A stretch of 34,621 nt of DNA. Source: a virus. Where the stretch lies: the IMG/VR virus record IMGVR_UViG_3300017788_000085, positions 1-34,621 of that record. One strand, written 5' to 3'. The position numbers were made by a program, and so were the translations under genes. Positions 4,053 through 34,621 of the stretch are shown piece after piece. The first letter of the stretch is position 1. Each line of letters opens with the position of its first letter. Under the pieces are notes generated by a model, which ran no database searches, had not been told where the DNA came from, and saw only the letters and a list, made by a program, of their open reading frames with translations.

Positions 4053-4060
4053 GATAAATA
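4053..4060 (+). promoter_or_regulatory. T4-type late promoter -10 box upstream of gp6
   Basis: GATAAATA followed by CC, matching the T4 late consensus TATAAATA at 7 of 8 positions. It lies in the 56-nt gap between gp25 and gp6, 26 nt before the start codon. By analogy with T4, transcription would start near 4066. T4-like phages read such boxes with the phage late sigma factor gp55. No start-site data are available here. Confidence 0.6.
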
Positions 4061-19500: not shown

Positions 19501-22500
19501 AATAGTGATACACTGCCCAGTTATCAAAAATATGTAGAAGAAGTTAAACCGTTTAAAACTGTAATTAGAGAATTTGTTAGCAGTTATCAATCAATTGATA
19601 ATACAAACAGTGCAACAACTGATTTCGATTTACCACCTTATTATAATACACTGTTACAACGTATAACTCCGTCTGAAGCAAAAATTCTAGATAATACGTT
19701 AATACAACTGGATGACAACACAGAAGATTATCCAAGAAAGTTTTGGTTAGATAACGTAGGATATAGCGTCAAAGAAATACAAGTTAGAAATGGTGGAAGC
19801 GGTTATATATTTCCACCTGTAATTAGATTGGTCGGTGGCGGGGGAAGTGGTGCTACTGCAAGAGCCTATTTAGGATATAGTTCTATAACAAGTATAGTTG
19901 TGACCAATCCAGGAAAAGGTTATACTACTGCACCCCAAGTTATAATAGATGGCTCAGTTGACGTCGGAGGTCAATCTGCTAGAGCATCAGCAATTCTAGG
20001 AAACGGACTTGTAAGAACTCCTAGTATCAAAATTAAATTTGATAGACTTGCAGGTTCATACTTTGTTTCTACACTAGTTGAAGAAGAAGAATTTATAGGT
20101 ACAAATGTTAATTTTAAATTTAATTTAAAATATCCTATAAACACTAATACAAATACATATGCTGTTTATGTCAACGATGAAGAACAACTAAGAAGTGCAT
20201 ACACTGTTGTTAATCTGTCCAACACTGTTGCGGGATATACAAGAGTTCAAGGACAGCTAGAATTTAAAACTCCGCCTTCGTTAGGCAGTAACATAAAAAT
20301 AGAATATAAAAAATCTCTATCAATGCTAAATGCAGAAGATAGAATTCAATTCGGATACGAGTCATTAACAGGCATGCTAGGTAAAGATCTAGCACAATTA
20401 ATGGACGGTGTTGATTATGGCGGAGTAGAAGTTAAAAGTTATGACTTTGGCGGTCCGTCTGGTTGGGATACTAAAGGTTGGTACACAGACACGTGGGATG
20501 AATTTGATAATACATTTGAGGACGAAATCTTTAGATTTGATGAATCTACAACTAATATAGAATTAAGTCAGCCTTTAGAAATAGACACAGTTTACAATGT
20601 CTATCTAAACGGGACAAGAATTGATGATCCTAATTTTGGAATAGGCGTTGTTAATAACACAAATGCTATTATGCCAAGTCTAGTCGGCGACGGATCGACA
20701 CAAACTATCGACATTGCAAATTATGGTATTCAAGCTGGTAATAATGATGTATTAATTATTAGAAAAATAACTAGCGACGGTGCATTTAAACCAGATCCAA
20801 ACAGTTATGACACTGCACTAAGCGGCGGTGATCTACAATATGGTAATGCTACTGGAACTAGAGCAGAAGACATTATTGTTGACGGCGACGGCTTTGTTAC
20901 ACCTACAACTAGTAAAGGTCCCGAAGAACTAGTTCCAGGACAGATTTTAGATACTCTAGATATTAAAGTCTATACTAGAGACACAGACGGCCAGGGATTA
21001 ATTTATAGTCAAAATTATATAATGAACAGTGCAATTGATACCTATAGTTTAGGTTCTATTCCGGGAAGTAAACCTGCGGTATTGATAAAAATGAACAATC
21101 AAATATTGAATGACACCGAATATACAATAGATTGGATAAACAACACAGCAACAATACTCAATCCTATTAACGGTGTAGAGTTAAGTATTATTTCAGTACA
21201 ATCAGCAGCACAAAACATTGTAAATTATGGATATTTTAGTTCTGATGAATCATCGACCGATTATGTAATACCTGTAAAATATAATTCAAATTATAGCATA
21301 CATGTAACAGTAGATGGAAATAAACAAACTGTTTTATTGTTACAGTCTGAAATCGACAATAATATAGTAATTAGATTTTCATCGCCGTTATTGCAAAATC
21401 AAACAGTTAGTTATATTGTGTTTACGAATAATAATTTAATAAATTATAGTCAAATTACTAAAGATATATTTATAGGTGACGGATCTACTAACGTGTTTAA
21501 TTTAACTTCACAACCGTTGTATGCACAACCTACTGCTTATAATGTTCTAGTTAAAGTGGATAATAATATATTAAATCCTGGATATTCAATAGAGTATACT
21601 ATACCACAAACAGGAGATAGAGAATATGCAATCGAAGCATTTCAATTTCCAGTAGGAACTCTAAGTGTATTAGATGTTGTAGTGTTTATAAACGGAGAAG
21701 AAATCACAACTCCTGACAAGTGGAGAATTAATATTGCAAATTCTAGTATAACTCTTACTGAATCTATCGGTATACCTGGAGATATTGTTACAATTTATGT
21801 TCTTACAAACAGTGATTATAATATAATAGGTTCGCAATTGATTTTAAATTCTACACCAAGTGTAGGACAATCTATAGAAATATTTAAATTTACTAATCAT
21901 GATTTATTAGGCTTAAAAAGAATAAGCTATGACGTTGTAGCAAGAACTACTCTTTATGTAGAAGATATCGAATATAAAAAATATAACAGGCTAACAATCG
22001 GTGAAGTAACTTTAAGAAAACTAGCAATTGATGCAGAATACGTTTGGGTTGCAGTCAACGGCGAATTGCTTTCACCTAGTGTTGACTATTCAGTTACACC
22101 TGACGGTACAAAGTTACGATTGTTAAGACAACCCAATCCGGGTGATATTTTAGATGTAATTCAATTCACTTCTCCCGTAAGAATTGAAAAATTTGCATTT
22201 AGACAATTCAAAGATATTATGAATAGAACCCATTATAAACGTTTAGATGCACCGGCTACGGAGTTAAGTCAAGATCTAAATTATTATGATTTAAGAATAG
22301 AAGTATCTGACGGTTCTCAATTGCCCGAACCTAATAAAGGTGCCAATCTACCTGGTGTTATTTTTATAAACAATGAAAGAATTGAATATTTTGTAAAAGA
22401 AAATAATACACTAAGACAGTTAAGAAGAGGAACACTAGGTACAGGCGTAGCGACCAAACATGTTGCAGGATCTGATGTATATGATCAAAGTTCTTTAAAA

Positions 22501-22881: not shown

Positions 22882-22884
22882 ATA
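22877..22884 (+). promoter_or_regulatory. Putative T4-type late promoter -10 box upstream of the 203-residue gene
   Basis: AATAAATA, 7 of 8 matches to TATAAATA, overlapping the stop codon of the giant gene and 17 nt before the next ATG. Transcription would start near 22890, leaving a short leader containing the Shine-Dalgarno sequence AGGAAAAG. It could let fibre genes be expressed independently of the 15-kb gene upstream. Confidence 0.45.
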
Positions 22885-22901
22885 TAAGTATAGGAAAAGA
22901 A

Positions 22902-23513
22902 ATGAGTTCAAATATGAAAGATAACAGTGGAATAGTTGTTCAAGGACATATAAAAATATTTGATCCAGAAACACAAAAAGTGTACGTTGACAAACGTAAT
23001 GCTATTCATTACGAAAATATGAGTATTGCACTTGCAGAAAGTTTAAGCAATTCAGGTCAAGGCTGGATACATGAAATGAGTTTCGGTAACGGTGGCACTA
23101 GTGTTGACCCAACTGGTATTATTACTTATTTGACCCCAAATTCAACGGGAACAAATGCAAGTTTATACAACCAGACATTTACAAAAATAGTTGATGACAG
23201 AAGTGTTAATAACATTGATCCTGCTAGAAATTATTTAGAAACTAGGCATTTGAGTGGTACAAATTATACAGACGTCTTGGTTACTTGTTTGTTAGATTAC
23301 GGTGAACCCAACGGACAACAAGCATTTGATACTGCAACTAATGCAGATGATTTATATGTGTTTGATGAATTAGGTTTAAGAAGCTATTCTTCGTCGGGCA
23401 CCGGAAGATTGATTACGCATGTTATATTTCATCCTGTACAAAAAAGCTTGAATAGATTAATACAAATAGATTATACAGTCCGTATACAAAGTCTCAGCGG
23501 AGGTAATATCTAA
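22902..23513 (+). CDS. Virion structural protein of unknown role, fibre-gene neighbour
   Basis: 203 residues. I do not recognise a T4 counterpart; it does not resemble T4 gp8 or gp9. Its sequence is typical of a baseplate or fibre accessory protein: an early GHIKIFDPETQKV strand region, a helical YENMSIALAESLSN segment, GWIHEMSFGNGG, and a C-terminal half with VFDELGLRSYSSSGTG then LITHVIFHPVQKSLNRLIQ and a final beta strand (IDYTVRI). That C-terminal pattern is one I recall from structural genes of marine T4-like phages. It is preceded by AGGAAAAG and a late-type box, and its stop overlaps the start of the first fibre gene (TAATG), so the two are probably translated together. An adaptor between baseplate and fibres is a reasonable guess. 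Confidence 0.6.
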   Translation: MSSNMKDNSGIVVQGHIKIFDPETQKVYVDKRNAIHYENMSIALAESLSNSGQGWIHEMSFGNGGTSVDPTGIITYLTPNSTGTNASLYNQTFTKIVDDRSVNNIDPARNYLETRHLSGTNYTDVLVTCLLDYGEPNGQQAFDTATNADDLYVFDELGLRSYSSSGTGRLITHVIFHPVQKSLNRLIQIDYTVRIQSLSGGNI

Positions 23514-25576
23514 TGGCTTATGAAGTAAGGTATACTGACACTGTAAACAAAGGCAGTATAACAGTAGATGACAATACATTGAATACAGAAACTAGCATTG
23601 CTTTGCCGGGAAGAGGAACCACAGCGTATGGACAAGCCGTTGCAGAAGGATTATTACATCTTTTAGAAAATTTTGCAAATTCGAATGCACCTGAAAGACC
23701 AGTAGAAGGCCAGTTGTGGTACGATAATTCGACAGGTGTAGATCAATTAAAAGTCTATGATGGAACTACATGGGTAGCAGCAGGGGGGTTAAAGCGGGCA
23801 ACTAGTGAACCGTCTGTAGCAAATAGTGTTGCAGGAGAATTATGGGTTAATACGCAAACACAACAATTATATTTGTTTTCAGGATCTTCTTGGGTTTTAG
23901 TAGGTCCGGAATTTACAGATGGTTTAGTTACTGGAGCAAAACCTGAAATAATTATAGGCACCGACAATGTTTCGTATAACTGTTTAGTTGTTAGAATAGA
24001 TAACATACCTAGAGTAATTATTAGTAGTAGAACATTTTTTCCTAAAACTACAATAGACGGTTTTAGGAACGGAATAAACGCAGGAATTAATATTTCTACC
24101 TCAGTTGCAGTAACAGGTGATATTTTAAAATATTGGGGCGTAGCAGAAAAAGCAGAAAATCTTATAATAGGCGGTGCAGTTATTCCGGCATCTAACTTTT
24201 TAAGATCAAACGACGTTTCTACAACAAATTTTCAGTTACGTATAAAATCCGATGATGGTGTTCAAGTAGGTCTAGGAGGACAATTCAATGTTTCAGTAGA
24301 CAGTAACGTGGGAGTTTTACAGAACAACGTTAGTGGATCTGCAATAGACATTAGATTAAGAGATGGTACTGCTACTAATACAGTAATGCGTATTGATAGT
24401 ACAAAAAGAATAGGAATTAACAATCTTGCGCCTGAAGAAGACTTGGATGTTGCAGGCAATGTAAGAATTAGTACTAATCCTGCTGATGCTACAACAGGAT
24501 TTTTATTAATCGAAAGTACAATTAATAGCACTGACATCGACGAAGGTTCGTTAATTGTAAACGGAGGTGCAGGCATTGCGTTAAATCTTAATGTAGGCGG
24601 TAATACTGATCTTAGTGGCGGCGTGTTAACTACAAATAATATTGCACCTGACAGTAATAGTGCAAGAAACATAGGAACAGTTAACAACAAATACGATCAA
24701 ATTTACGCCAATACTTTTTTTGGAAACTTGCAAGGAAATGTTAGTGGAACAGTAACAGGTAGAGCGGGCAACGCAGACAGGCTAACTACTGCTACAACAT
24801 TTGCATTGTCAGGCGATGTAGAACCTTCCAGTTTTGCATTTGACGGCCAAACCGGTGGTACAACTAAAACATTTAATGTTGCAATATCTAACTCTTTTAT
24901 TTCTAATAAAGACGTTGTGTATGATGCAGGAAATGCAGATGAAATACTACTAAACGTAACAACCGGTACTACCGGAGTTTATAGAATAACTAAAAGAAAC
25001 TTTTTAAAAACTATACCATTAGTTCCTGCAGGTGTATTTGTGCCATTCGGCGGTGAAGAGGCTCCTGCAGGTTGGCTATTGTGCGATGGCTCTGAAGTAA
25101 GAAAGTCGGATTATAACGAATTATGGTTAGCAATAGGTTTTAATTTTAGAGACGCTAGTTTAATCTCCGACGGCGGTGTTAACTTTTTTGCATTGCCCGA
25201 TCTTCGTGGGAGATTTCCACTTGGATTAGATAACATGGGAGGTCCTAGTGCAAATCGAGTAACAAGTTCTGCCGCAGACGGGTTAGGAAACAGTTCAGGA
25301 TCAGAAACTAAAACAATTGGATTAGCAAACATACCTGACCATGAACATGACCTAGAAGGTGAAACAGGAAATCAGTATTATGCATTGAGAGTTGCTTCTG
25401 GTGCTCCGTCAGATGCTAGTGCAATTACCTTTCCAATAGAACCTGGATTGGGCGGAACACACGCCTTGGCTACAAGCGGAGGTGTAAAAAAACCTATTAC
25501 AACTACGTTGGGCACACCCATAGATGTTATGAATCCTTATATGGCTGTGAATTATATAATTTATACTGGACAATAA
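23513..25576 (+). CDS. Tail fibre with C-terminal tail-collar domain (short-fibre-like)
   Basis: 687 residues. Residues ~1-130 are the N-terminal module shared with the next two genes, including LLENFANSNAPERPVEGQLW and two tryptophan repeats of the form G(Q/E)LW......L.(V/L)(Y/F)(D/S)G..W. Residues ~130-500 are a beta-rich shaft with fibre motifs (NNLAPEEDLDVAGNVRIS, SARNIGTVNNKYDQIYANTF). Residues ~504-687 form a Phage Tail Collar domain: FVPFGGEEAPAGWLLCDGSE, then FALPDLRGRFPLGLDNMGG, and PDHEHDL at ~608-614, which recalls the HxH metal-binding motifs of T4 gp12. The likely job is receptor binding as a trimeric short tail fibre. Its start overlaps the upstream stop, and the next gene begins one base after its stop. 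Confidence 0.8.
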   Translation: MAYEVRYTDTVNKGSITVDDNTLNTETSIALPGRGTTAYGQAVAEGLLHLLENFANSNAPERPVEGQLWYDNSTGVDQLKVYDGTTWVAAGGLKRATSEPSVANSVAGELWVNTQTQQLYLFSGSSWVLVGPEFTDGLVTGAKPEIIIGTDNVSYNCLVVRIDNIPRVIISSRTFFPKTTIDGFRNGINAGINISTSVAVTGDILKYWGVAEKAENLIIGGAVIPASNFLRSNDVSTTNFQLRIKSDDGVQVGLGGQFNVSVDSNVGVLQNNVSGSAIDIRLRDGTATNTVMRIDSTKRIGINNLAPEEDLDVAGNVRISTNPADATTGFLLIESTINSTDIDEGSLIVNGGAGIALNLNVGGNTDLSGGVLTTNNIAPDSNSARNIGTVNNKYDQIYANTFFGNLQGNVSGTVTGRAGNADRLTTATTFALSGDVEPSSFAFDGQTGGTTKTFNVAISNSFISNKDVVYDAGNADEILLNVTTGTTGVYRITKRNFLKTIPLVPAGVFVPFGGEEAPAGWLLCDGSEVRKSDYNELWLAIGFNFRDASLISDGGVNFFALPDLRGRFPLGLDNMGGPSANRVTSSAADGLGNSSGSETKTIGLANIPDHEHDLEGETGNQYYALRVASGAPSDASAITFPIEPGLGGTHALATSGGVKKPITTTLGTPIDVMNPYMAVNYIIYTGQ

Positions 25577-25577
25577 A

Positions 25578-27470
25578 ATGAGTTATCAATTAAATAGAAC
25601 TGACGGCACATTACTAACAGAACTTATCGATGGGCAATCAGACACTCAAAGTACAAATTTAACATTTGTAGGTAGAAATTTTATCGGATACGGCGAAGCA
25701 TTTAATGAAAACTTTATAAAACTGTTAGAAAACTTTTCTAACACTGCTGCTCCTAGCAATCCGTTATCTGGACAACTATGGTGGGATTCTTCGGAGCAAC
25801 GACTGAAAGTATACAACGGAGCACAATGGAAAGCAAGTGGTGGTCCTATAGTTCAAGCGACGCAGCCGCAAATGGTTGCTGGTGATCTTTGGATTAATAA
25901 CGCAACAAATCAAGTATATGCATTTGATGGAACTGATTTAATTCTTATAGGTCCAGATTATACTGCAAACCAACAGATTAGTGGATTTCAAATTGCAAGT
26001 ATATTAGATGAGCAAAGTAGAAGTAGAACTGTTGCTAAACTTTTTGTAGGAGGAACTTTAGTTGCAGTATTAAGTGCAATTACATTTGTACCTACAGTCA
26101 CTGAACGAATACTGGGTTTAGTTACCTTAACTAACCCTAACGGAACAATTTTCGAAGGTATTAATTTAATAAACAAGGATACCTTTCAATTTTATGGTAT
26201 TGCAGATTCGTCTAGAGCATTAATATCTATTACAGGTGCATCACGAACTGCTGATCAATTTTTACCATCTGATTCAAATGGTGTTACTGTGGGAACATTA
26301 AATATACAAAACTCGGGCGGTCTTACTATAGGTTTGTCGCAAAATACCGTACAGAAAATTGTAGGTCAAAGTTTTTATATAGAAAATCAACTTATTAATC
26401 ATGATTTGAGTTTGAGAGTTAGATCTAGTGCGTTCGGATCGCTTATTGTAGATGGAATTTACATAGACGCATCTGAAGCTAGAGTCGGAATATTTACTAC
26501 AACAAGATTACCAGAATATACATTAGATGTAGAGGGTGATTTAAGAGTTACTGGTAACTTAATTATAGAAGGCACAACAACAACTTTTGAAACATCAACT
26601 CTGCGAATTGAAGATAAAAACATCGAATTAGGTTCGTTAAATGACAGTTCATTGGGAGATGATACTGCGATCGACGGCGGCGGTATTACTGTTCTTTCTT
26701 CAGATGGTAATAAAACACTAACTTGGGAAAGTAGTACTAATAGTTGGACAGCTAACAAAAATTTTAATTTGTCTTCTAGTTTATTATCGTATAAGATAGC
26801 AGGAAGTACAAAACTTACAACTGATAGCTTGACTAATATTTTGTATGCTAACGATTTAATACAAATTGGAACATTAGTAAATTTAGATGTTGACAGCATT
26901 AATATAAATGGCGCTGCAATAACAAGCAGTCTTGCCTTGGGTGTGGTTGCTGCGTCAGGAATTAATATTACTGCTGGCGGTGATATAGGTATTACTGACA
27001 ATAGAAAGATTACCGGATTAGCAACTCCTACAGCTAACCAAGATGCTGCTAATAAATTGTATGTAGATAGCGAAATAGCAAATGAAACAATAGCATTTAG
27101 TTTTGATATTACAGGGTTAGGTGTGGGTGTAACACTACAAAATGCAGTAGCAGCATTTATAAATGATATGTATCCTGCGGCTGGTGCAAATACTGGAAAA
27201 TTTGCTAGAATACATGCTGTGTCTTATGCAGGAGCAACAGTAAGTGGTATTAGCGTCACAATAACACAATCTCCTAACACTACTGGAGTATTAACAAAAT
27301 CTCTAATTGCTGTTGATTCTAACGGAACACAAAACGAATCAGTAGTTCAAGACATAGTTTCGTCAAACACTGCATCGGGTGTAGCGTCATTAACTGCAAT
27401 TAGAAGTTTAATGATATATCAATCTAACGGATCGGCTTGGACGTTTGTCTCATCTACAGCATATCCATAA
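25578..27470 (+). CDS. Tail fibre protein, second paralog
   Basis: 630 residues. The N-terminus matches the neighbours (FVGRNFIGYGEAFNENFIKL, then LSGQLWWDSSEQRLKVYNG and a second repeat GDLWINNATNQVYAFDG). The middle has the classic marine-phage fibre motif GTTTTFETSTLRIEDKNIEL (~333-353) and, at ~477-497, ITGLATPTANQDAANKLYVD, which often precedes the distal fibre domain. The C-terminal ~130 residues are a beta-rich region (FSFDITGLGVGVTLQNAV to the end) with no recognisable enzyme or collar domain. It probably forms another fibre type or a co-assembled segment. Its stop is followed by a 38-nt gap holding a late-type promoter. Confidence 0.75.
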   Translation: MSYQLNRTDGTLLTELIDGQSDTQSTNLTFVGRNFIGYGEAFNENFIKLLENFSNTAAPSNPLSGQLWWDSSEQRLKVYNGAQWKASGGPIVQATQPQMVAGDLWINNATNQVYAFDGTDLILIGPDYTANQQISGFQIASILDEQSRSRTVAKLFVGGTLVAVLSAITFVPTVTERILGLVTLTNPNGTIFEGINLINKDTFQFYGIADSSRALISITGASRTADQFLPSDSNGVTVGTLNIQNSGGLTIGLSQNTVQKIVGQSFYIENQLINHDLSLRVRSSAFGSLIVDGIYIDASEARVGIFTTTRLPEYTLDVEGDLRVTGNLIIEGTTTTFETSTLRIEDKNIELGSLNDSSLGDDTAIDGGGITVLSSDGNKTLTWESSTNSWTANKNFNLSSSLLSYKIAGSTKLTTDSLTNILYANDLIQIGTLVNLDVDSININGAAITSSLALGVVAASGINITAGGDIGITDNRKITGLATPTANQDAANKLYVDSEIANETIAFSFDITGLGVGVTLQNAVAAFINDMYPAAGANTGKFARIHAVSYAGATVSGISVTITQSPNTTGVLTKSLIAVDSNGTQNESVVQDIVSSNTASGVASLTAIRSLMIYQSNGSAWTFVSSTAYP

Positions 27471-27475
27471 AATAC

Positions 27476-27483
27476 GATAAATA
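27476..27483 (+). promoter_or_regulatory. T4-type late promoter -10 box upstream of the third fibre gene
   Basis: GATAAATA, one mismatch to TATAAATA, in the 38-nt gap after the second fibre gene. Transcription would start near 27489. The leader contains the Shine-Dalgarno sequence AGGGG (27496-27500), 8 nt before the ATG. No hairpin covers this binding site, unlike at 4061 and 29945. Confidence 0.6.
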
Positions 27484-27508
27484 AAATAAATCACTAGGGG
27501 TTCAATTA

Positions 27509-28975
27509 ATGGCTTATCAAATAGATAGATATAACAATACAGTATTAACTGTAGTCGAAGACGGAACAATAGATCAAACAACCGATCTAAAGTTTATCGG
27601 AAGAAATTATGCAGGTTATGGTGAAATTCAAAATGAAAATTTCGTATACTTGTTAGAAAACTTTGCTGGAGCAAATCAACCTCCTAGAGCATTAAGCGGA
27701 CAATTGTGGTTTGATACTGCAAGCAGTAAGATGAAATTTTATGATGGTATAAAATGGAGAACAACTGGCGGATCAGAAGTATCTAGCGCAGAACCAACAG
27801 GGTTGACAGAAGGTGATTTCTGGTGGGACAGCGCAAATAAACAACTTTATGTTTATGATGGCACAGACTTTATTTTGATAGGTCCACAAAACGCAGGCGA
27901 CGGCGTAACTCAAATGGTGAGTTTAGAAGTGCTTGATACTAGCAGTATTACTAGAAGTATAATTGCTGCTACTATCAATGATGAAATTATGTTTGTTATT
28001 AGCAGCATTGAATTTACACTAAACGCATTAACTCCATTAACAGGTTTTGATAGAATCAAAAAGGGAATTACCCTAATCAACACTAGATTAGCAACAAACG
28101 GTGTAACCAGTACAGATCATTGGTTTTGGGGAACAGCATCTAATTCTGCAAGATTAGGCGGTCTACTTGCATCAGACTACCTTACCGCAGCAAATCCAAC
28201 TTTTACTACTACAGTGGCATTTCCAGATGCGGGAATTACTATAGGTAATGATTTAGATCTAAAAATTTACATTGAAAACGGAAACCAAGGTGTTATCGAA
28301 AATCAAAATGGTACTAACGGAATTATAAAATTCAAAGCAACTAATGGTGCAGGAGCAAGTACTCATAGCCTAACTGTTACATCGGCAGGCATGAATCCCG
28401 CAGCAGACAACACAATTAATCTAGGAACTAGCAGTTTAGGATTTAATACTGTGTATGCTTATAGTGTTGTGGGTGAAGCAACAAAGGCAACCAGCGTAAG
28501 AGTGGGATCAGATTTTAGAACTGCAAGTGTAAGTGCCACTAACAATACTGTTGTTGTTAGAGATGCAACAGGTAATATTGCTGCAAACTTGTTTCAAGGA
28601 ACTGCTACTGCTGCAAGATATGCAGACCTAGCTGAAAAATATAGCACAAGCGGTAACTTATCGGTAGGTACTGCGGTTGCAGTTTGCAATCATGATAGTC
28701 ATGAAGTAGAACCAGCTACAGCAAGCAATATGTGTATAGGTGTAGTTAGCGATAAACCTGCTTATCTAATGAATTCAGATGCAGAAGGGCAAGCAATTGC
28801 ACTTGTAGGTCGTGTTCCTGTAAGAGTAACAGGTTCTGTTAAAAAAGGACAAGCAGTCTATGCATGGGATGCAGGTGTATGTTCTACTATACAAACAACT
28901 GCGTTAGTAGGCATTGCATTAGAAACTAACAATGACGAGGGCGAAAAACTAGTAGAATGTGTATTAAAAGTTTAA
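27509..28975 (+). CDS. Tail fibre protein, third paralog, with YADLAEKY C-terminal domain
   Basis: 488 residues. It carries the shared N-terminal module (FIGRNYAGYGEIQNENFVYL, LSGQLWFDTASSKMKFYDG, and the second repeat GDFWWDSANKQLYVYDG). The shaft includes DNTINLGTSSLGFNTVYAYS and VVVRDATGNIAANLFQGTA. The last ~118 residues begin with YADLAEKY (Y371) and continue with MCIGVVSDKPAYLMN, ALVGRVPVRVTG and VKKGQAVYAW. This is a conserved fibre C-terminal domain in marine T4-like phages. It resembles Peptidase_G2-type intramolecular chaperone domains that help trimerise fibres and may self-cleave; I infer this from the pattern and see no proven catalytic residues. It has its own late-type promoter. 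Confidence 0.75.
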   Translation: MAYQIDRYNNTVLTVVEDGTIDQTTDLKFIGRNYAGYGEIQNENFVYLLENFAGANQPPRALSGQLWFDTASSKMKFYDGIKWRTTGGSEVSSAEPTGLTEGDFWWDSANKQLYVYDGTDFILIGPQNAGDGVTQMVSLEVLDTSSITRSIIAATINDEIMFVISSIEFTLNALTPLTGFDRIKKGITLINTRLATNGVTSTDHWFWGTASNSARLGGLLASDYLTAANPTFTTTVAFPDAGITIGNDLDLKIYIENGNQGVIENQNGTNGIIKFKATNGAGASTHSLTVTSAGMNPAADNTINLGTSSLGFNTVYAYSVVGEATKATSVRVGSDFRTASVSATNNTVVVRDATGNIAANLFQGTATAARYADLAEKYSTSGNLSVGTAVAVCNHDSHEVEPATASNMCIGVVSDKPAYLMNSDAEGQAIALVGRVPVRVTGSVKKGQAVYAWDAGVCSTIQTTALVGIALETNNDEGEKLVECVLKV

Positions 28976-28984
28976 GGACTTGTC

Positions 28985-29911
28985 ATGGTAGATGTAACAG
29001 CAGCACGACATAATAATTTACAAAGCAGAATAGCATTAATTTTAGGTAATGGTGCTGGACAAAATGGTTACGGACAGACTTTAACTAGTTATCAAGTTAA
29101 TAACAGCGGAAAAATTGCAGAAGCAGCAGACATAAACGCTGTATATACTGATATGGTAAAAGCAAGGGTACATCAAACAGGAACTGTTCCTACCTCTATA
29201 GCACAAATTATACAAAATTTAAATACTATTGCAGAAACAGAAAGTAATTTTATTAATAATTCAGGTATAACCACTGTAGATCTAGACGGCACTAAAAAGG
29301 GTATTACTGATTTTGAAAATTTAATGACTTTTATAGAATCTGACAAATTTTTAATGCATCCCTCCCAGGCAAGTTTAGAATTAGGGATTTCTAGTGTAAG
29401 AACAACGCAATGGAATGGCATAGTGTTTCATGAAGCAACAGTAAATTTTGTTAATTCTGACAGAAGAAGACACTTTTTTAATAGTGGCGGCGAATTTAGA
29501 TTTACTAGTAATATTACAGGTGCTAATACACCTAAAGGCTTAGACTGGACTGCACTTTGTTCTAGCACAGGAGTTGTTAGATTTAATTACAATTCTACAG
29601 CAACTACCGGTTCTGGTAGTGGATCTGCCATAGGTAATTATCAACTAACTTCCACCTATCAAACTGTTTTTAATAGAATAGGCGGCGGCACAGTTAGTGG
29701 AGTATATAATGGTAATATTTACACAATCAAAGCAAGAGCCCCTACTGCAAGTTCTATACAATTTAGAATAGAATTTAATGACATTGCAGTAGACAATTTA
29801 ATTGATAATAACGTAACAGGTGTGTTAACAAGTACAATACAGCATTATAGAGCAGATAACGTTAATGTTTCAATAACTGCTCCAACATATACTAACAATT
29901 CTTCTCTCTAA
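28985..29911 (+). CDS. Probable fibre-associated structural protein, paralog A
   Basis: 308 residues, preceded by AAGGA overlapping the stop of the third fibre gene. It is a clear paralog of the following gene: both start with a V(D/K)(V/I)TAAR.N.LQ.RI helix and share NGYGQT/TGYGQT, KARVHQ/RARVHQ, RRHFFN(S/A)GG (at ~161) and an identical GSAIGNYQLTSTYQ (~212-225). The N-terminal third is helical and the rest is beta-rich with many Asn/Ser/Thr residues, as in adhesins and fibre tips. No catalytic motif is seen. Genes of this type occur beside fibre genes in marine T4-like phages. The role is inferred from position and composition. Confidence 0.65.
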   Translation: MVDVTAARHNNLQSRIALILGNGAGQNGYGQTLTSYQVNNSGKIAEAADINAVYTDMVKARVHQTGTVPTSIAQIIQNLNTIAETESNFINNSGITTVDLDGTKKGITDFENLMTFIESDKFLMHPSQASLELGISSVRTTQWNGIVFHEATVNFVNSDRRRHFFNSGGEFRFTSNITGANTPKGLDWTALCSSTGVVRFNYNSTATTGSGSGSAIGNYQLTSTYQTVFNRIGGGTVSGVYNGNIYTIKARAPTASSIQFRIEFNDIAVDNLIDNNVTGVLTSTIQHYRADNVNVSITAPTYTNNSSL

Positions 29912-29936
29912 TTTTTTTATTGAAAGTTAAATGTAT

Positions 29937-29944
29937 AATAAATA
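29937..29944 (+). promoter_or_regulatory. T4-type late promoter -10 box upstream of paralog B
   Basis: AATAAATA followed by CTC, closely matching the extended T4 late consensus TATAAATACT. It lies in the 54-nt gap between the two paralogs. Transcription would start near 29950. Confidence 0.6.
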
Positions 29945-29957
29945 CTCTGTTAAAGAG
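29945..29957 (+). promoter_or_regulatory. Possible short hairpin covering the ribosome binding site of paralog B
   Basis: CTCT-GTTAA-AGAG gives a 4-bp stem whose 3' arm is part of the Shine-Dalgarno sequence AGAGGA (29954-29959). The 5' arm sits between the late box and the predicted start at ~29950, so mRNA made from the late promoter would lack it. The stem is very short, so this is suggestive mainly because the layout repeats that at 4061-4076. Confidence 0.25.
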
Positions 29958-29965
29958 GAATATCT

Positions 29966-30940
29966 ATGTCTGTTAAAATCACCGCTGCTAGATATAATAC
30001 ATTGCAACAGAGAATATCTGCAATTATGGGCGTTAGTTCATCCGGAGCCCCTACTACAGGATACGGACAAACTGTAAATAGCGATGTTCATTTTCCTATA
30101 GCTGGCGATTTTTTATCAAACGCAAATTTAACTGATAAAATCGACGATCAAGAGTATAGAGATTTATATATTGATATTGTAAGAGCAAGAGTTCATCAAA
30201 TTGGAGCAGCAGCGTTTACTGTTGATCCTTTTGTTGTGGGCAATTATACAGCAAATCCGCTAACTGCTGATAAAATTAGAGAATCATATATATCTAATCT
30301 AGAAAGTTTAATGACTACAATAGAAACAAATAAATTCACTATACATATACCTACACAAGCTAGTTTAGAAAATTTATTAACTACTGGTGCTGTTCCAGTT
30401 GTAAGCACTAGAAGTACTGCATGGAACGGCAGTATATTTCATATTTTTACTGTAACTTTTGCGACTGCCTTAGCAAGAAGACATTTTTTTAACGCAGGCG
30501 GACAAATTAGATTATCAGCAGGCATTACATATGCAGGCGCTGAATCAAAAACTCTGTTGTGGCAAAGTGCGTTATCTTCAATGGGAATTATTAGTTTTGC
30601 TGCAAATAGTACATTTAGTAATGCAGGTGTAGGGACTGGATCTGCTATCGGCAATTATCAATTAACCTCTACCTATCAATCCTTGTACACACGATCTGTA
30701 GGTGGTATATACACTAATGCGTTTTATAGAATAGACGCATTGTCAAACAGCACAACTACAATTCAATTTAGAGCAGGATTTAACGATCTTACTGTGGAAA
30801 ATGTAGATGAAAATGTGCAAGGTACGTTATCTAGTAATATTGGAATTGCAAGACCTGATGGTTCAGTTAATATAAACGGAACAGTATACGACACTGTTGA
30901 TTTAGTAGCACCAACTGGTACTACAACAACAAATCTTTAA
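29966..30940 (+). CDS. Probable fibre-associated structural protein, paralog B
   Basis: 324 residues, paralogous to the gene before it (shared VHQ, RRHFFNAGG at ~170 and GSAIGNYQLTSTYQ at ~223). Differences are concentrated in an extra N-terminal stretch (~40-60) and in the C-terminal ~70 residues, where receptor-contacting or exposed parts might lie. The start is preceded by AGAGGA and a late-type promoter. The gene is followed by the hairpin and host-like promoter at 30945-30982, marking the end of the structural block. No catalytic motif is visible. Confidence 0.65.
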   Translation: MSVKITAARYNTLQQRISAIMGVSSSGAPTTGYGQTVNSDVHFPIAGDFLSNANLTDKIDDQEYRDLYIDIVRARVHQIGAAAFTVDPFVVGNYTANPLTADKIRESYISNLESLMTTIETNKFTIHIPTQASLENLLTTGAVPVVSTRSTAWNGSIFHIFTVTFATALARRHFFNAGGQIRLSAGITYAGAESKTLLWQSALSSMGIISFAANSTFSNAGVGTGSAIGNYQLTSTYQSLYTRSVGGIYTNAFYRIDALSNSTTTIQFRAGFNDLTVENVDENVQGTLSSNIGIARPDGSVNINGTVYDTVDLVAPTGTTTTNL

Positions 30941-30944
30941 TATC

Positions 30945-30960
30945 AAATCAATCTTGATTT
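30945..30960 (+). terminator. Weak hairpin, possible terminator after paralog B
   Basis: AAATCA-ATCT-TGATTT is a perfect 6-bp stem with a 4-nt loop, 4 nt after the stop of paralog B, followed by TTATTTAATT. The stem is AT-rich and the T-run is interrupted, so termination would be inefficient. It also overlaps the -35 box of the promoter described next, so it may simply reflect that element. Confidence 0.35.
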
Positions 30961-30982
30961 TTATTTAATTCTATTATATAAT
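30954..30982 (+). promoter_or_regulatory. Sigma70-like promoter upstream of the glycosyltransferase block
   Basis: TTGATT (30954-30959), a 17-nt spacer, then TATAAT (30977-30982): a perfect -10, 4 of 6 at -35, and ideal spacing. It lies 20 nt before the ATG at 31003. No ATAAATA late box is present in this gap. It suggests the downstream genes can be read by host RNA polymerase with its own sigma factor, probably earlier in infection. AT-rich gaps can yield such matches by chance. Confidence 0.5.
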
Positions 30983-31002
30983 AATAGATATGGAGATATT
31001 TT

Positions 31003-31362
31003 ATGGACGAACGACTTCAAAAAGCATTAGAATTTTCAAATTACATGGTTACACTTAATAATCAAAAACGTATGCTTAAAGAGAAATATTATGAAGATTT
31101 AATTTATTTTTTTAATGGCGCTCAATTTACAATTACAAAAGAATTGATAACTTTTGTTGGTCTAATGTTAGAAAAAGGTAACGATAATAATATTGTGATT
31201 ACTGATGACAATGATGTGCCTAGTAGAATTGAAAATGTAAATGAATTTTATGATGCAATTGTTGATTGCTATTACACTGCTTCTAACAAATATTATACAG
31301 AATATGAATTGTTAAAGAAGAAAAGAAAAATAGATGTTTTGGTAGGATATAATGACGTCTAA
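31003..31362 (+). CDS. Small conserved phage protein of unknown function
   Basis: 119 residues, preceded by GGAG. It is predicted to be largely helical: MDERLQKALEFSNYMVTLNN at the start, a middle ITKELITFVGLMLEKG helix, a short ITDDNDVPSRIENV acidic turn, and a long C-terminal helix (YYTEYELLKKKRKID). I recall similar proteins starting MDERLQKALEFSNY in marine T4-like phage genomes next to fibre and glycosyltransferase genes, but no function is known to me. Its end overlaps the next start by 11 bases, so it is translationally linked to the glycosyltransferase that follows. An accessory or chaperone role is possible but unsupported. Confidence 0.65.
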   Translation: MDERLQKALEFSNYMVTLNNQKRMLKEKYYEDLIYFFNGAQFTITKELITFVGLMLEKGNDNNIVITDDNDVPSRIENVNEFYDAIVDCYYTASNKYYTEYELLKKKRKIDVLVGYNDV

Positions 31363-32212
31363 CGGAGTTATATTAATTGCAAAAAATAATGGTCAAATTG
31401 ATTATGTAAAGCAGGCCTGTTTTTCTGCTTCAAGAATAAAAAAATATTTAAATTTACCTGTTTCAATTATAACTGATAGCGTTGATTATTTAAAAAAACA
31501 ATTTGATTATTCCTGCTTTGACCAAATTATTCCTATAGAATATCATCAGACACGCAATACTAAAATTTATCATGACGGAAGCATGGCCTATAAAACACTT
31601 GCGTTTAAAAATGATCTACGTCATCAAGCCTATTGGTTGTCGCCTTATGATAAAACATTAATAATGGACACAGACTATATTATAAACAACAGTTTGTTAA
31701 AAAATTGTTTTTTATCTAACGAAAGTTTTTTGATTTATAAAAATTCTGAAGATATTGCCAAGGTTCGAGACGAAACTGAATTTAAGTACATCAGTGATAG
31801 CAGTGTTGATTTTTATTGGGCTACTGTAGTATATTTTGAAAAAACTCAATTAAATAATGTATTTTTTAATTTAGTAGCTCATATTCAAGACGAGTGGAAT
31901 CATTATAGTAGAATTTATCAAATCAAGTCATCATTATTCAGAAACGATTTTGCATTTAGCATAGCAATACATATAATGAACGGTTTTACTAACGGAGAAT
32001 TTGCTAAACCCTTACCAGGCAAACATCTGTATACAATCGATAGAGATATTTTATGGCAACACAAAGACGACGAAATGATGTTTTTAGTTGAAAAACAAAA
32101 CTATCTCGGAGAATACACTGCGTTATCTACAAAAGGATTAAACATTCATGTTATGAATAAATTTAGTCTAGATAGAATAATAGACGAGGTCTTGAATAAT
32201 GGAAAAGAATAA
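31352..32212 (+). CDS. GT8-like glycosyltransferase
   Basis: 286 residues. The layout is that of a GT-A fold, family-8-like transferase: VILIAKNNGQIDYVKQACF at the start (nucleotide-sugar binding strand and helix), LPVSIITD, FDQIIPIE, then the metal-binding DxD as IMDTDYI (D106, D108). It would transfer a sugar from a nucleotide donor onto an unknown acceptor. The following gene is a paralog with the same N-terminal plan (YV.QAC, SIIT, FDQIIPI). The start codon lies inside the previous gene and the end overlaps the next start by 14 bases. Possible targets are virion proteins or host surface glycans; the sequence does not say which. Confidence 0.7.
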   Translation: MTSNGVILIAKNNGQIDYVKQACFSASRIKKYLNLPVSIITDSVDYLKKQFDYSCFDQIIPIEYHQTRNTKIYHDGSMAYKTLAFKNDLRHQAYWLSPYDKTLIMDTDYIINNSLLKNCFLSNESFLIYKNSEDIAKVRDETEFKYISDSSVDFYWATVVYFEKTQLNNVFFNLVAHIQDEWNHYSRIYQIKSSLFRNDFAFSIAIHIMNGFTNGEFAKPLPGKHLYTIDRDILWQHKDDEMMFLVEKQNYLGEYTALSTKGLNIHVMNKFSLDRIIDEVLNNGKE

Positions 32213-33044
32213 AGGAATTGTCGTATTAGCACAAAATTTGTCTAACGTAAATTATGTAGAACAAGCTTGTGCATTAGCAATGAGTATAAAAGTAACAAAT
32301 CCATCAGTGAATGTTTCTATTATAACAAATGATACTGTGCCGGAAGAATATAATTTTTTATTCGATCAGATAATACCCATACCGTTTAATGATGATGCTG
32401 TGCTGTCTGATTGGAAAATTGAAAATAGATGGAAAATTTATCATGCTAGTCCTTATGAACAAACAATTGTAATGGACTCAGATATGATAGTTTTACAAGA
32501 CATTTCGGCTTGGTGGGATTATTTTGAAAATTATGATTTATATTTTACTACTTATGTCGTTACATATAGAAATGAAAAAATAGAAAATGACTATTACAGA
32601 AAATTATTTACAGCTAATTATTTGCCTAGCATATATACTGGATTACATTATTTCAAAAAAAATGAATTTGCATATAGATTCTATAAATGGTTAGAAATAA
32701 TTACCCAGAATTGGGAATTCTTTTACGGCAATTTTATAAAAGAATATTATCCGAGTAGACCTTCAATGGACGTTACCGCAGCAATTGCTATTAAAATATT
32801 AGATTGCGAAACAGTTGTTACAAATAAAACAAGCAAATTGCCTTATTTTGTTCATATGAAACCAAAAATACAGAATTGGACGCAAAACGTAGATAGATGG
32901 CAAGATTATGTAGGAGTTTATATTAACAAAAACTGTGAAATTAAGATTGGAAATCACAGTCAAAATGGTATTCTTCATTATACAGAAAAAGATTTTATTA
33001 AATCTTCTATTATAGAAAGATATAGGAATTATTTGCATGTCTAA
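32199..33044 (+). CDS. GT8-like glycosyltransferase, second copy
   Basis: 281 residues, paralogous to the preceding gene. It has GIVVLAQNLSNVNYVEQACA, VSIITND, FDQIIPIPF, and the DxD motif IVMDSDMIVLQD (D93, D95), where Mn2+ and the sugar nucleotide bind in this family. A later YTGLHYFKKNEFAYRFYKW and PSMDVTAAIAI resemble the acceptor-side GT8 region. A C-terminal HMKPKIQNW includes a His that could be the second metal ligand, as in GT8 enzymes. It is a better GT8 match than the first copy. Overlapping starts and stops place it in the same operon. Confidence 0.75.
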   Translation: MEKNKGIVVLAQNLSNVNYVEQACALAMSIKVTNPSVNVSIITNDTVPEEYNFLFDQIIPIPFNDDAVLSDWKIENRWKIYHASPYEQTIVMDSDMIVLQDISAWWDYFENYDLYFTTYVVTYRNEKIENDYYRKLFTANYLPSIYTGLHYFKKNEFAYRFYKWLEIITQNWEFFYGNFIKEYYPSRPSMDVTAAIAIKILDCETVVTNKTSKLPYFVHMKPKIQNWTQNVDRWQDYVGVYINKNCEIKIGNHSQNGILHYTEKDFIKSSIIERYRNYLHV

Positions 33045-34395
33045 TTTATTAGAAATATTAAAAGATATAATTATAGATATCAATTCTGATCAGACGTTAT
33101 ATGTTTACTATGACAAAAATAACGGTTCTATTATTAAAATAAACAGTAGATATAAAGATACTCACGATTATAAAATTTTAAAAGTACCTTATTCCCAAGT
33201 TGAGGAAATAATGACAGGTAGTAAAAAATTAGAAGATTTTACCGTAGTTTACGATTTGAGTGCTAAATCTTATATAATTAAAGAAAATACATACGAACAT
33301 AAATTAGTTTCTATAGAAAAAACCCTTTACCAGTTACCTGTATACAAAAGAAGTATAGATGTAAAAATAGAAAACACTGTAATATTTGAAGAAATATATG
33401 AAAATGTAGACGTCTTTGTTTATGTTAATGACCAATTATATTATAATAATTCTTTATTATGGTTTAATAACTCTGTTTATAAACTAAAAAAAGATGTGTT
33501 AAATGATTTTTGTGAAATAGATCATGAAATTTACATTACAGATGTTTTATTAACAGATTTTAAATCTAATGTATTAACCACAAAATATAATTTATTTGAA
33601 ACTATTTACTCTGGAGTATTTGTAGATGTGTGGTATAACAATTTACCTCATTTAGCGGGGCAACATGTATGGAATAGTAATAATGTTTATAGAATTAAAA
33701 CCGATCAATCATCAAACACCGACTTTGAACTGGATAATGTAGAATTAATTCTTGAAAATGTACAGTTATACGACGATGCAAACAAATCTTTAAATTTTAT
33801 AAAAGAAGTACAGTTTGGTGATAAATTATTAATTAATAATTTTTTGTATCTGTACAGTGAAAAAAACACAGTTAATCAATTGTCTAACAAATTTATAAAA
33901 TTTTACATAAATCCTTACACTTTTTTGATAAACACAGATAATTTACATTTTGTCAAATTAACTAATGTTAACAATAAAGTTGATTATGAAACATGTGAAT
34001 TTGATTCTAATTTACATCCTGCCCATTTAGTCAATAATGGACAAAAAATACTTATTGGAAAAAATTTATATATTGCCAAACAAACTAATGAAAATGTTGA
34101 CATTACAGTATTACAAAATTATGATAAAAAATGTTGGAACATAATTTTAAACAGAGTTACTAGAAAAACACTTTTAGAAAGTGGATACAAATTTGATGAT
34201 AGATTAGTTTTTAGTATTACTGCAAAATATGATCCTAATATATTATATAGGACAATAGAATTTACGTTAAACGACTTAATAAATGAAGTTTATAAAAATT
34301 ATCCTTTCATTTATGACTGGGAATTTAATAAAGAAAATGTAAGTATATATACGCCTAAATATTTTGAAACATATGCTCACGAGATCCTTGAATGA
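33037..34395 (+). CDS. Unrecognised protein with repeated small beta motifs
   Basis: 452 residues, very AT-rich DNA and Asn/Asp/Tyr/Ile/Lys-rich. I do not recognise the family. Four segments share a (G/N)..(I/V)..N..(L/V)Y.... pattern: NSLLWFNNSVYKLK (~140-150), AGQHVWNSNNVYRIK (~207-221), FGDKLLINNFLYLYSEKN (~260-277) and NGQKILIGKNLYIAKQTNEN (~334-353). These recall the G..V...N.LY.A core of small carbohydrate-binding modules, but the flanking tryptophans are mostly absent. The C-terminal ~60 residues are helical. It starts inside the preceding glycosyltransferase gene (8-base overlap) and ends in an ATGA overlap with the next gene. It could be a glycan-binding partner of the transferases or a structural protein. 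Confidence 0.6.
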   Translation: MSNLLEILKDIIIDINSDQTLYVYYDKNNGSIIKINSRYKDTHDYKILKVPYSQVEEIMTGSKKLEDFTVVYDLSAKSYIIKENTYEHKLVSIEKTLYQLPVYKRSIDVKIENTVIFEEIYENVDVFVYVNDQLYYNNSLLWFNNSVYKLKKDVLNDFCEIDHEIYITDVLLTDFKSNVLTTKYNLFETIYSGVFVDVWYNNLPHLAGQHVWNSNNVYRIKTDQSSNTDFELDNVELILENVQLYDDANKSLNFIKEVQFGDKLLINNFLYLYSEKNTVNQLSNKFIKFYINPYTFLINTDNLHFVKLTNVNNKVDYETCEFDSNLHPAHLVNNGQKILIGKNLYIAKQTNENVDITVLQNYDKKCWNIILNRVTRKTLLESGYKFDDRLVFSITAKYDPNILYRTIEFTLNDLINEVYKNYPFIYDWEFNKENVSIYTPKYFETYAHEILE

Positions 34396-34621
34396 AAACT
34401 AAATTTAAAATAGTTGATTATGACATAATATATCTAAGCTATGACGAGCCTAATGCAGAACGCAATTATGCAGATCTGTGTAAAAAAGTGCCGTGGGCAA
34501 AAAGAGTTCACGGCGTTAAAGGAAGTGATGCTGCACACAAGGCCTGTGCTAGATTAAGTGAAACTGATAGATTTATTACAATCGACGGCGACAACATAAT
34601 TGATCAATCTTTTTTAAACCA
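34392..34621 (+). CDS. GT-A-like glycosyltransferase, 3' partial
   Basis: 76 residues are visible before the window ends; the start overlaps the previous stop as ATGA. The sequence begins with a strand IVDYDIIYLSYDEPNAERNY, followed by WAKRVHGVKGSDAAHKACA and then FITIDGDNII, where D65-G66-D67 is a DxD-type metal site. This arrangement matches a family of predicted glycosyltransferase domains I recall from marine phages (the ISYDEPNA and RVHGVKG motifs are characteristic). It is a different family from the two GT8-like genes upstream. Activity and acceptor are unknown, and the rest of the protein lies beyond the window. Confidence 0.7.
   Translation, partial: MKTKFKIVDYDIIYLSYDEPNAERNYADLCKKVPWAKRVHGVKGSDAAHKACARLSETDRFITIDGDNIIDQSFLN

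Follow-up and report, generated by a model that had tools for sequence, protein, structure and literature searches.

The closest known kind of region to the one considered here is the host recognition cluster (HRC) of pelagimyophages, in which GT8 is, in the available part of the paper, the commonest glycosyltransferase family and which its authors read as modifying the O-chain against coinfection; the middle and late promoters of these phages were not predictable in the same text (PMC7029224). Core glycosyltransferases are also described for the 'Moraphages' in the accessible portion of PMC12619734. When glycosyltransferase genes lie close to phage fibres, the usual view is that they are interchangeable cargo. 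The window analyzed here is the whole of IMG/VR virus record IMGVR_UViG_3300017788_000085 (34,621 bases), taken as a piece of a large tailed phage from a group known through metagenomes, and its genes run along the plus strand in the order baseplate hub and wedge (g02-g04), virion protein (g05), collar and fibre-like genes (g06-g11) and a terminal block of five open reading frames (ORFs), g12-g16. This five-gene core is kept in nearly every testable relative, and a mostly conserved promoter puts it in an early-type class despite its position inside the late region. The best reading, preferred tentatively and with slightly less than even confidence, is that g12-g16 form an early operon that alters host surface glycans. 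The features of the block are:

30954..30982, plus strand: sigma-70-type promoter of the block, TTGATT-17-TATAAT (TTGATT at 30954-30959, TATAAT at 30977-30982)
30992..30995, plus strand: GGAG, likely ribosome binding site of g12
31003..31362, plus strand: g12, 119 residues, conserved, first gene of the operon
31352..32212, plus strand: g13, 286 residues, GT8-like paralogue of g14
32199..33044, plus strand: g14, 281 residues, GT8-like
33037..34395, plus strand: g15, 452 residues, a core common to relatives and an insert that carries two modules of chitin-binding type (residues ~126-170 and ~196-240)
34392..34619, plus strand: g16, first 76 residues of a GT-A-fold protein (~306 residues in relatives), cut by the record end

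All four junctions of the block overlap (by 11, 14, 8 and 4 bases), as the original prediction of five genes with overlapping ends had stated. Relatives were gathered in two ways: a search with g14 found 125, of which the best 80 were used and in which presence counts are biased since g14 was the bait, and a search with g06, which corrects this bias, gave at least 590, of which the best 80, again the top-scoring part, were used. Overlapping or abutting junctions recur in these phages between g12 and g13 (50/50), g13 and g14 (50/50), g14 and g15 (33/39) and g15 and g16 (35/36), and are absent between g11 and g12 (0/30); ORF calling was mechanical, by longest frame, which favors overlaps and places some starts too early.

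The original prediction also held that a host-type promoter replaces the late boxes at this block, and this was borne out: TTGATT-17-TATAAT begins 49 bases before the g12 start (ATG at 31003), is conserved, and no late box stands before g12 in the window, in any of 54 strings from relatives or in any of 49 loci distinct at 95% g14 identity. The window by itself cannot exclude a chance origin, as 54 promoter-like sites occur between 22000 and 34621 against 65.2 (standard deviation 7.7) in shuffles; chance is excluded because the promoter is conserved in relatives. A sigma-70 match of at least 10/12 was found in 44 of 54 distinct 100-base strings upstream of g12 (0.04 in letter shuffles), usually as TTGACA or TTGACT, 17 bases, and TATACT or TATAAT, mostly 48-61 bases before g12. 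Counted as one row per locus at 95% g14 identity, 39/49 carry it, 40/49 once three starts were re-set, and 41/49 when 130 bases before g12 were taken (first-order shuffles 0.04), the re-setting and the widening having been done after the misses had been seen. In the g06-fetched set, from which five already-seen contigs were excluded by name only, 30 of 36 further strings reach 10/12 and one of the 36 has a late box. Such matches are scarce before the other genes (g06 0/36, g07 0/35, g08 0/48, g09 3/48, g10 2/48, g13 2/53, g14 2/54, g15 2/42), but g11 has 8/35 and g16 15/51, so that some relatives may possess a second promoter ahead of g16; in the relative G002, TTGACA-17-TATACT stands before g16 instead of g12. 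A hairpin before g12, AATCAA-TC-TTGATT, was considered as a terminator of g11 and rejected: its sequence runs into the -35 element, it contains a single G-C pair, and the list of terminators does not include it.

The late box NATAAATA occurs in four plus-strand copies in the window, each 25-33 bases before g04, g06, g09 or g11:

4053..4060, plus strand: late box GATAAATA before the baseplate wedge gene g04
22877..22884, plus strand: late box AATAAATA before g06 (28/36 relatives)
22902..30940, plus strand: g06-g11, tail collar and fibre-like genes directly upstream of the block
27476..27483, plus strand: late box GATAAATA before g09 (47/48 relatives)
29937..29944, plus strand: late box AATAAATA before g11 (26/35 relatives)

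A late box also precedes g10 in 14/48 relatives. In G002, a 187-kb relative, sigma-70 matches of at least 11 precede 12 of 219 ORFs and late boxes precede 22. The twelve include g16 and the homologue of g09, which has a late box too; of the other ten, six are of replication, nucleotide or pterin/queuosine type (primase, exonuclease, thymidylate-synthase/kinase-type, HNH endonuclease, GTP cyclohydrolase and QueD genes); the remaining four matched nothing or are without a known function. Ten of the 22 late-box genes were scanned, of which four are virion protein, tail tube, head-tail adaptor and baseplate wedge and six are unassigned, and some late boxes of G002 fall within islands. Judged from promoter sequences, the classes appear clear yet imperfect, and they would speak against late co-expression of the block with the structural genes.

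The presence of two GT8-like genes and a third GT-A-like gene, also foreseen in the original prediction, is supported by a glycogenin match for g14, paralogy for g13 and a predicted GT-A fold for g16. A g14 profile matched glycogenin-1 in the PDB (E 7.8e-7), over positions 3-106 of 280 only; glycogenin we take to belong to GT8. The DxD motif of g14 has D93 in at least 90% and D95 in all of 43 sequences, and its PHROG match (PHROG 1903, E 3.1e-5) is to a family without known function. By itself g13 reaches glycogenin at E 0.56 only, and its profile aligns to that of g14 with an hhalign probability of 99.8 and 24% identity, which makes the two paralogues; both Asp residues of its D106-x-D108 are invariant in 45 aligned sequences. 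The label 'GT8-like' was chosen because a Pfam single-sequence scan of g13 and g14 gave no family at E 1. For g16, the full-length homologue from locus L002 was modelled (AlphaFold pLDDT 87.9), with RmlT as best Foldseek match (E 6.2e-5) and a Z of 10.1 to B4GALNT1 (3.2 Å over 140 residues), indicating a GT-A fold; the nucleotidyltransferases MobA and IspD also give Z 8-9, so the fold by itself is no proof of sugar transfer. D64 and D66 of its DxD motif are invariant in 36 sequences. This homologue matched no Pfam or PHROG family at E 0.01 and, by sequence, no glycosyltransferase among solved structures.

The core of g15 spans ~180-225 residues in most relatives, and the insert adds ~250 residues in the clade of the window. 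Its predicted model (pLDDT 83.8, pTM 0.49) shows two small chitin-binding-like modules that also resemble parts of the Milano and 7-7-1 phage receptor-binding structures. The module fold superposes on a Chitinase C module at 1.6 Å over 45 residues (Z 6.5), with a Foldseek E of 0.17 for a chitin-binding domain, and on Milano 8fqc_P1 at 1.2 Å over 43 residues (Z 7.4). The N-terminus reaches Z 4.4 only against a Mu tail-fibre chaperone entry, which was kept as a lead and not used. No convincing Pfam or PHROG match was found for g12, and its weak PDB profile matches (syntaxin Vam3, E 0.0084) were judged to be chance. None of g12-g16 contains a membrane-helix-like stretch (highest 19-residue mean 1.22).

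The block travels with the fibre genes. Gene order is collinear among the g14-fetched relatives, and at 52 distinct g14 loci, where there was room, g12 and g13 stand upstream in 48/48, a fibre gene upstream in 44/44 and g16 downstream in 40/41. Among the 46 g06-fetched contigs with at least 9.5 kb behind g06, 38 carry at least two of g12-g14, and seven of the remaining eight have g14 farther along on the same strand (in one case just 43 residues of it, where the contig stops), L121 serving as positive control for this search; block genes are thus present in 45/46, the one exception being a 12-kb contig. Pairwise distances correlate between block and fibre genes (g07-g13 r 0.74, g09-g14 r 0.65, g06-g16 0.59; none of 999 permutations as high in each case) over the 30 distinct loci of the 36 that held all seven genes. 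The sequence of g16 correlates least, and this gene may recombine more than the others.

Since the record ends inside g16, the region beyond it was followed in relatives, and we infer that the phage of the window carries such an island as well. The first gene after g16 has the radical SAM motif CxxxCxxC in 24/28 distinct loci with 5 kb of room. Three islands, a non-random sample in which scans omitted five ORFs crossing fetched pieces, reach ~15 kb (G002), ~32 kb (G001, with some genes on the opposite strand) and ~39 kb (G004) past g16. Pfam radical SAM matches, counted at E 0.001 and some of them below Pfam's own cut-off, were found for 22/37 scanned proteins in G004, 9/37 in G001 and 5/14 in G002. 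Additionally, the 37 scanned proteins of G004 gave six SPASM domain matches and the 37 of G001 gave five Asp/Asn hydroxylase matches and one Trp halogenase match. A UDP-glucose/GDP-mannose dehydrogenase or epimerase is present in each of the three, and Pfam named no O-antigen flippase, polymerase or exporter family among the island proteins scanned.

Several details of these islands deserve record. That of G004 lies at 3456-42682 of the contig (L095-L097), ~39 kb with 22 radical SAM proteins among the 37 scanned. In G001, L099:18079-19314 is probably the island's tryptophan halogenase (Pfam E 4.2e-90; the bulk scan names no member). One island radical SAM protein matches two Vibrio phages at 25% identity. 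In G002, L085:93-2487 holds five tandem paralogous ORFs that start MRNGLI/MRNRMI or MRNGLT and contain repeated WYQN..LHR..GPAVE units. All seven contigs G001-G007 have a second, diverged g16 copy at a distance of 5-14 kb from the first; three of these copies belong to open frames 547-651 residues long.

Bacterial or archaeal metagenome-assembled genome (MAG) contigs hold 17 loci of g16 type, of which 10 also show g12-g14 and look like the same phage group; some of the other seven look cellular. The phage-like contigs (L103-L106, L108-L111, L113 and L117, one of 335 kb) were binned into MAGs assigned to Neomarinimicrobiota, Rickettsiales, Gammaproteobacteria, Bdellovibrionales, Rhodobacteraceae and Pacearchaeota, and host labels taken from these MAGs are unsafe; a marine origin of the phages rests on the names of some MAGs. 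The KSB1 contig L119 carries a partial g16 relative (40% over 91 residues) in the vicinity of GT2, GT4-type and ABC-2 export genes, and the g16 relatives of the Bacteriovoracaceae-type contigs L114 and L116 have GT2 or radical SAM genes nearby. By gene neighborhood, this hints that g16 relatives may do surface-glycan work in cells.

In the preferred reading, host RNA polymerase would transcribe g12-g16 as one operon from the sigma-70-type promoter before the late fibre genes are expressed. The three glycosyltransferases (g13 and g14, GT8-like; g16, GT-A), presumably soluble, would act in the cytoplasm; their acceptor would be a glycan of the host surface, probably the lipopolysaccharide (LPS) core or O-chain, which would then be exported by the host's own machinery. 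The neighboring variable island would supply altered sugars and further chemical changes, g15 may hold or recognize the glycan through its carbohydrate-binding-type modules, and the changed surface would block adsorption of other phages, and of the phage's own progeny, to the infected cell or its debris. Computation gave the layout of the operon, the class of its promoter and how far it is conserved, the protein families and folds, the shared inheritance with the fibres and what the islands of three relatives contain. The time of expression, the acceptor, host export and the benefit to the phage are what we infer from them. This early action on the host surface is favored because the promoter is conserved, because g13, g14 and g16 were assigned as GT8-like or GT-A and because the block lacks membrane-helix-like stretches; the genes that share the promoter class in G002, the sugar-nucleotide dehydrogenase or epimerase of the islands, the cellular g16 relative near export genes and the published precedent of the pelagimyophage HRC point the same way.

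A number of observations weigh against it. Nine of the 49 loci lack a good promoter match, including the two nearest relatives: L002 (contig G001) and L003 score just 9, as does L028, and L004 passes only with 130 bases; the contigs G001 and G002, on which the island and promoter-class work was done, both score 9 before g12. Radical SAM enzymes, Asp/Asn hydroxylases and the Trp halogenase outnumber sugar-nucleotide genes in the islands, a mix that would be no less expected if proteins or peptides were modified. Fibre genes lie right next to the block, and phage receptor-binding structures are among the matches of the g15 modules. Finally, the core is conserved, whereas surface-diversifying clusters are described as sporadic in the accessible text of PMC7824862.

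The original prediction had left it between glycosylation of the fibres and alteration of the host surface, and with a glycosyltransferase block supported by families and folds both are kept as candidates. Modification of the virion is, given the position and the enzyme types, a serious rival, though on balance somewhat unlikely: block and island would modify the phage's own fibres or the giant baseplate protein, the glycosyltransferases, radical SAM enzymes and hydroxylases putting unusual groups on later-made virion proteins, and g15 would be a fibre-associated glycan-binding protein. The block lies behind a fibre gene at all 44 distinct loci with room, the islands of G004 and G001 hold the radical SAM, SPASM, Asp/Asn hydroxylase and Trp halogenase matches counted above, families of which radical SAM enzymes, hydroxylases and halogenases often act on peptides, and the g15 modules resemble the Milano and 7-7-1 receptor-binding structures. 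However, the promoter class of the block is unlike that of the fibres, no fibre residue is known to be modified, and the g15 matches rest on modules of ~45 residues. The layout thus makes the question testable, that is, whether the host surface is altered early or the virion late.

A more speculative proposal, which we regard as improbable, is that the block is the constant early head of a phage 'modification factory' in which a fixed glycosyltransferase core is joined to an exchangeable battery of radical SAM enzymes, hydroxylases and halogenases. If this were true, natural-product-like groups would be placed on fibres or on a phage-coded peptide, and close relatives would differ in chemistry and not just in sequence. 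The radical-SAM-rich island is also a source of uncharacterized enzymes.

It is quite improbable that the targets are modified bases in the phage DNA, produced with queuosine-type genes and then given sugars by the glycosyltransferases. Viral DNA glycosyltransferases have been published (listed among the references of PMC12619734, in its available part) and promoters of the same class precede the GTP cyclohydrolase and QueD genes of G002, but the block follows the fibres and continues into a radical SAM island, and the proteins closest to it by profile and fold have sugars, lipids, proteins or nucleotides as substrates.

The proposal that the block is a recently acquired cassette of foreign composition, which the original prediction had raised from its G+C content below that of the fibres, scarcely survives, since its place and composition are conserved among relatives, its G+C follows from its amino acids and its distances correlate with those of the fibre genes. 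The dip itself is real, and the counts of 13 and 27 G+C reported for two 60-base stretches are correct: g12-g15 have 23.5-28.8% G+C, g06-g11 33.7-38.5% and the g16 fragment 35.5%, while dips to ~29% occur elsewhere in the window too (6.0-7.5 kb and 21-22 kb). Third-position G+C is alike in complete genes of the block (0.17-0.24) and outside it (0.16-0.23), so the shift sits at positions one and two. When the codon usage of the remaining window genes is applied, amino-acid content alone predicts the G+C of each complete block gene within 0.015 (off by 0.031 for the 76-codon g16 fragment), and because amino-acid content explains the dip, it speaks of enzymes versus fibres and not of origin. The fall from fibres to block recurs in 70/70 g14-fetched relatives with enough sequence (70 of 80 loci qualified), so that, together with block genes in 45/46 g06-fetched contigs, both block and composition proved conserved in relatives, and neither foreign base composition nor patchy presence was found. 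Judged by sequence, the block looks like an old part of these phages and not a recent import.

Upstream in the window, positions 7534-22881 are taken up by the single 5115-codon virion protein gene g05, parts of which match phrog_10938. The Peptidase_G2 autoproteolytic chaperone domain is weakly matched by the fibre-like gene g09 (27509-28975; E 3.6e-5, slightly below the Pfam cut-off), which suggests that g09 may encode a self-cleaving fibre. Among named phages, Sinorhizobium phage Phosso and Agrobacterium phage Atu_ph07 rank top for g04 and g06 (35-37% and 54-55% identity), and the fibre-to-block stretch has no DNA-level match to named phages. Of the block, g12, g14 and g16 were searched against named phages; g12 and g16 gave none and g14 only the unannotated LR756508 (E 2e-4).

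Phosso and Atu_ph07 use the same slot, after the homologues of g06 and g09, for several radical SAM genes, but the fetched regions hold no g12-g16 profile matches. Their radical SAM clusters lie behind the fibres at ~22600-31400 (L082 and L083), the same slot with different cargo; their ORFs at ~22.6-31.4 kb match none of the ORFs of G001, G002 and G004 at E 1e-5, and whole-record profile searches with g12, g14 and g16 gave only a weak g12 match (E 0.009) elsewhere in Atu_ph07. The jumbo cyanophages P-SSM2 and S-SSM6a, in the available part of PMC7824862, likewise combine glycosyltransferases with sugar-altering enzymes in LPS-type clusters, and a second cluster holds a halogenase, 2-oxoglutarate oxygenases and cupins; those clusters are described as sporadic and polymorphic, whereas the core here is present in nearly every relative tested, and the word 'radical' is absent from the main text of that paper. 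The Campylobacter phages CP220 and CPt10 encode 11 and 12 radical SAM proteins per genome, with an exchangeable module of five, and the accessible portion of that paper mentions no glycosyltransferase core (PMC2853527). A single radical SAM protein is described for a further phage cluster in PMC10783043.

The likeness to the pelagimyophage HRC, as far as the available text describes it (PMC7029224), extends to a large island, fibres behind a long structural gene, several glycosyltransferases, a UDP-glucose dehydrogenase and radical SAM cassettes. In relatives, the structural region does contain a large variable island that combines fibres with glycosyltransferases, of which the window holds only the first 3.6 kb after the fibres; the HRC lies between VrlC and gp14 of a T4-like genome, and here the island follows the 5115-residue g05 (phrog_10938) and the fibres. 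The g12 and g14 profiles have no match in HTVC008M, and the nearest named phages are jumbo phages of Agrobacterium and Sinorhizobium. Unlike the HRC in the text available, the first five genes here keep one order across relatives and are mostly under a promoter of their own, and the three islands hold 5 to 22 radical SAM matches. Compared with the pelagimyophage HRC, this locus is thus set apart by a constant core under a promoter of its own and by how heavily radical SAM enzymes are represented.

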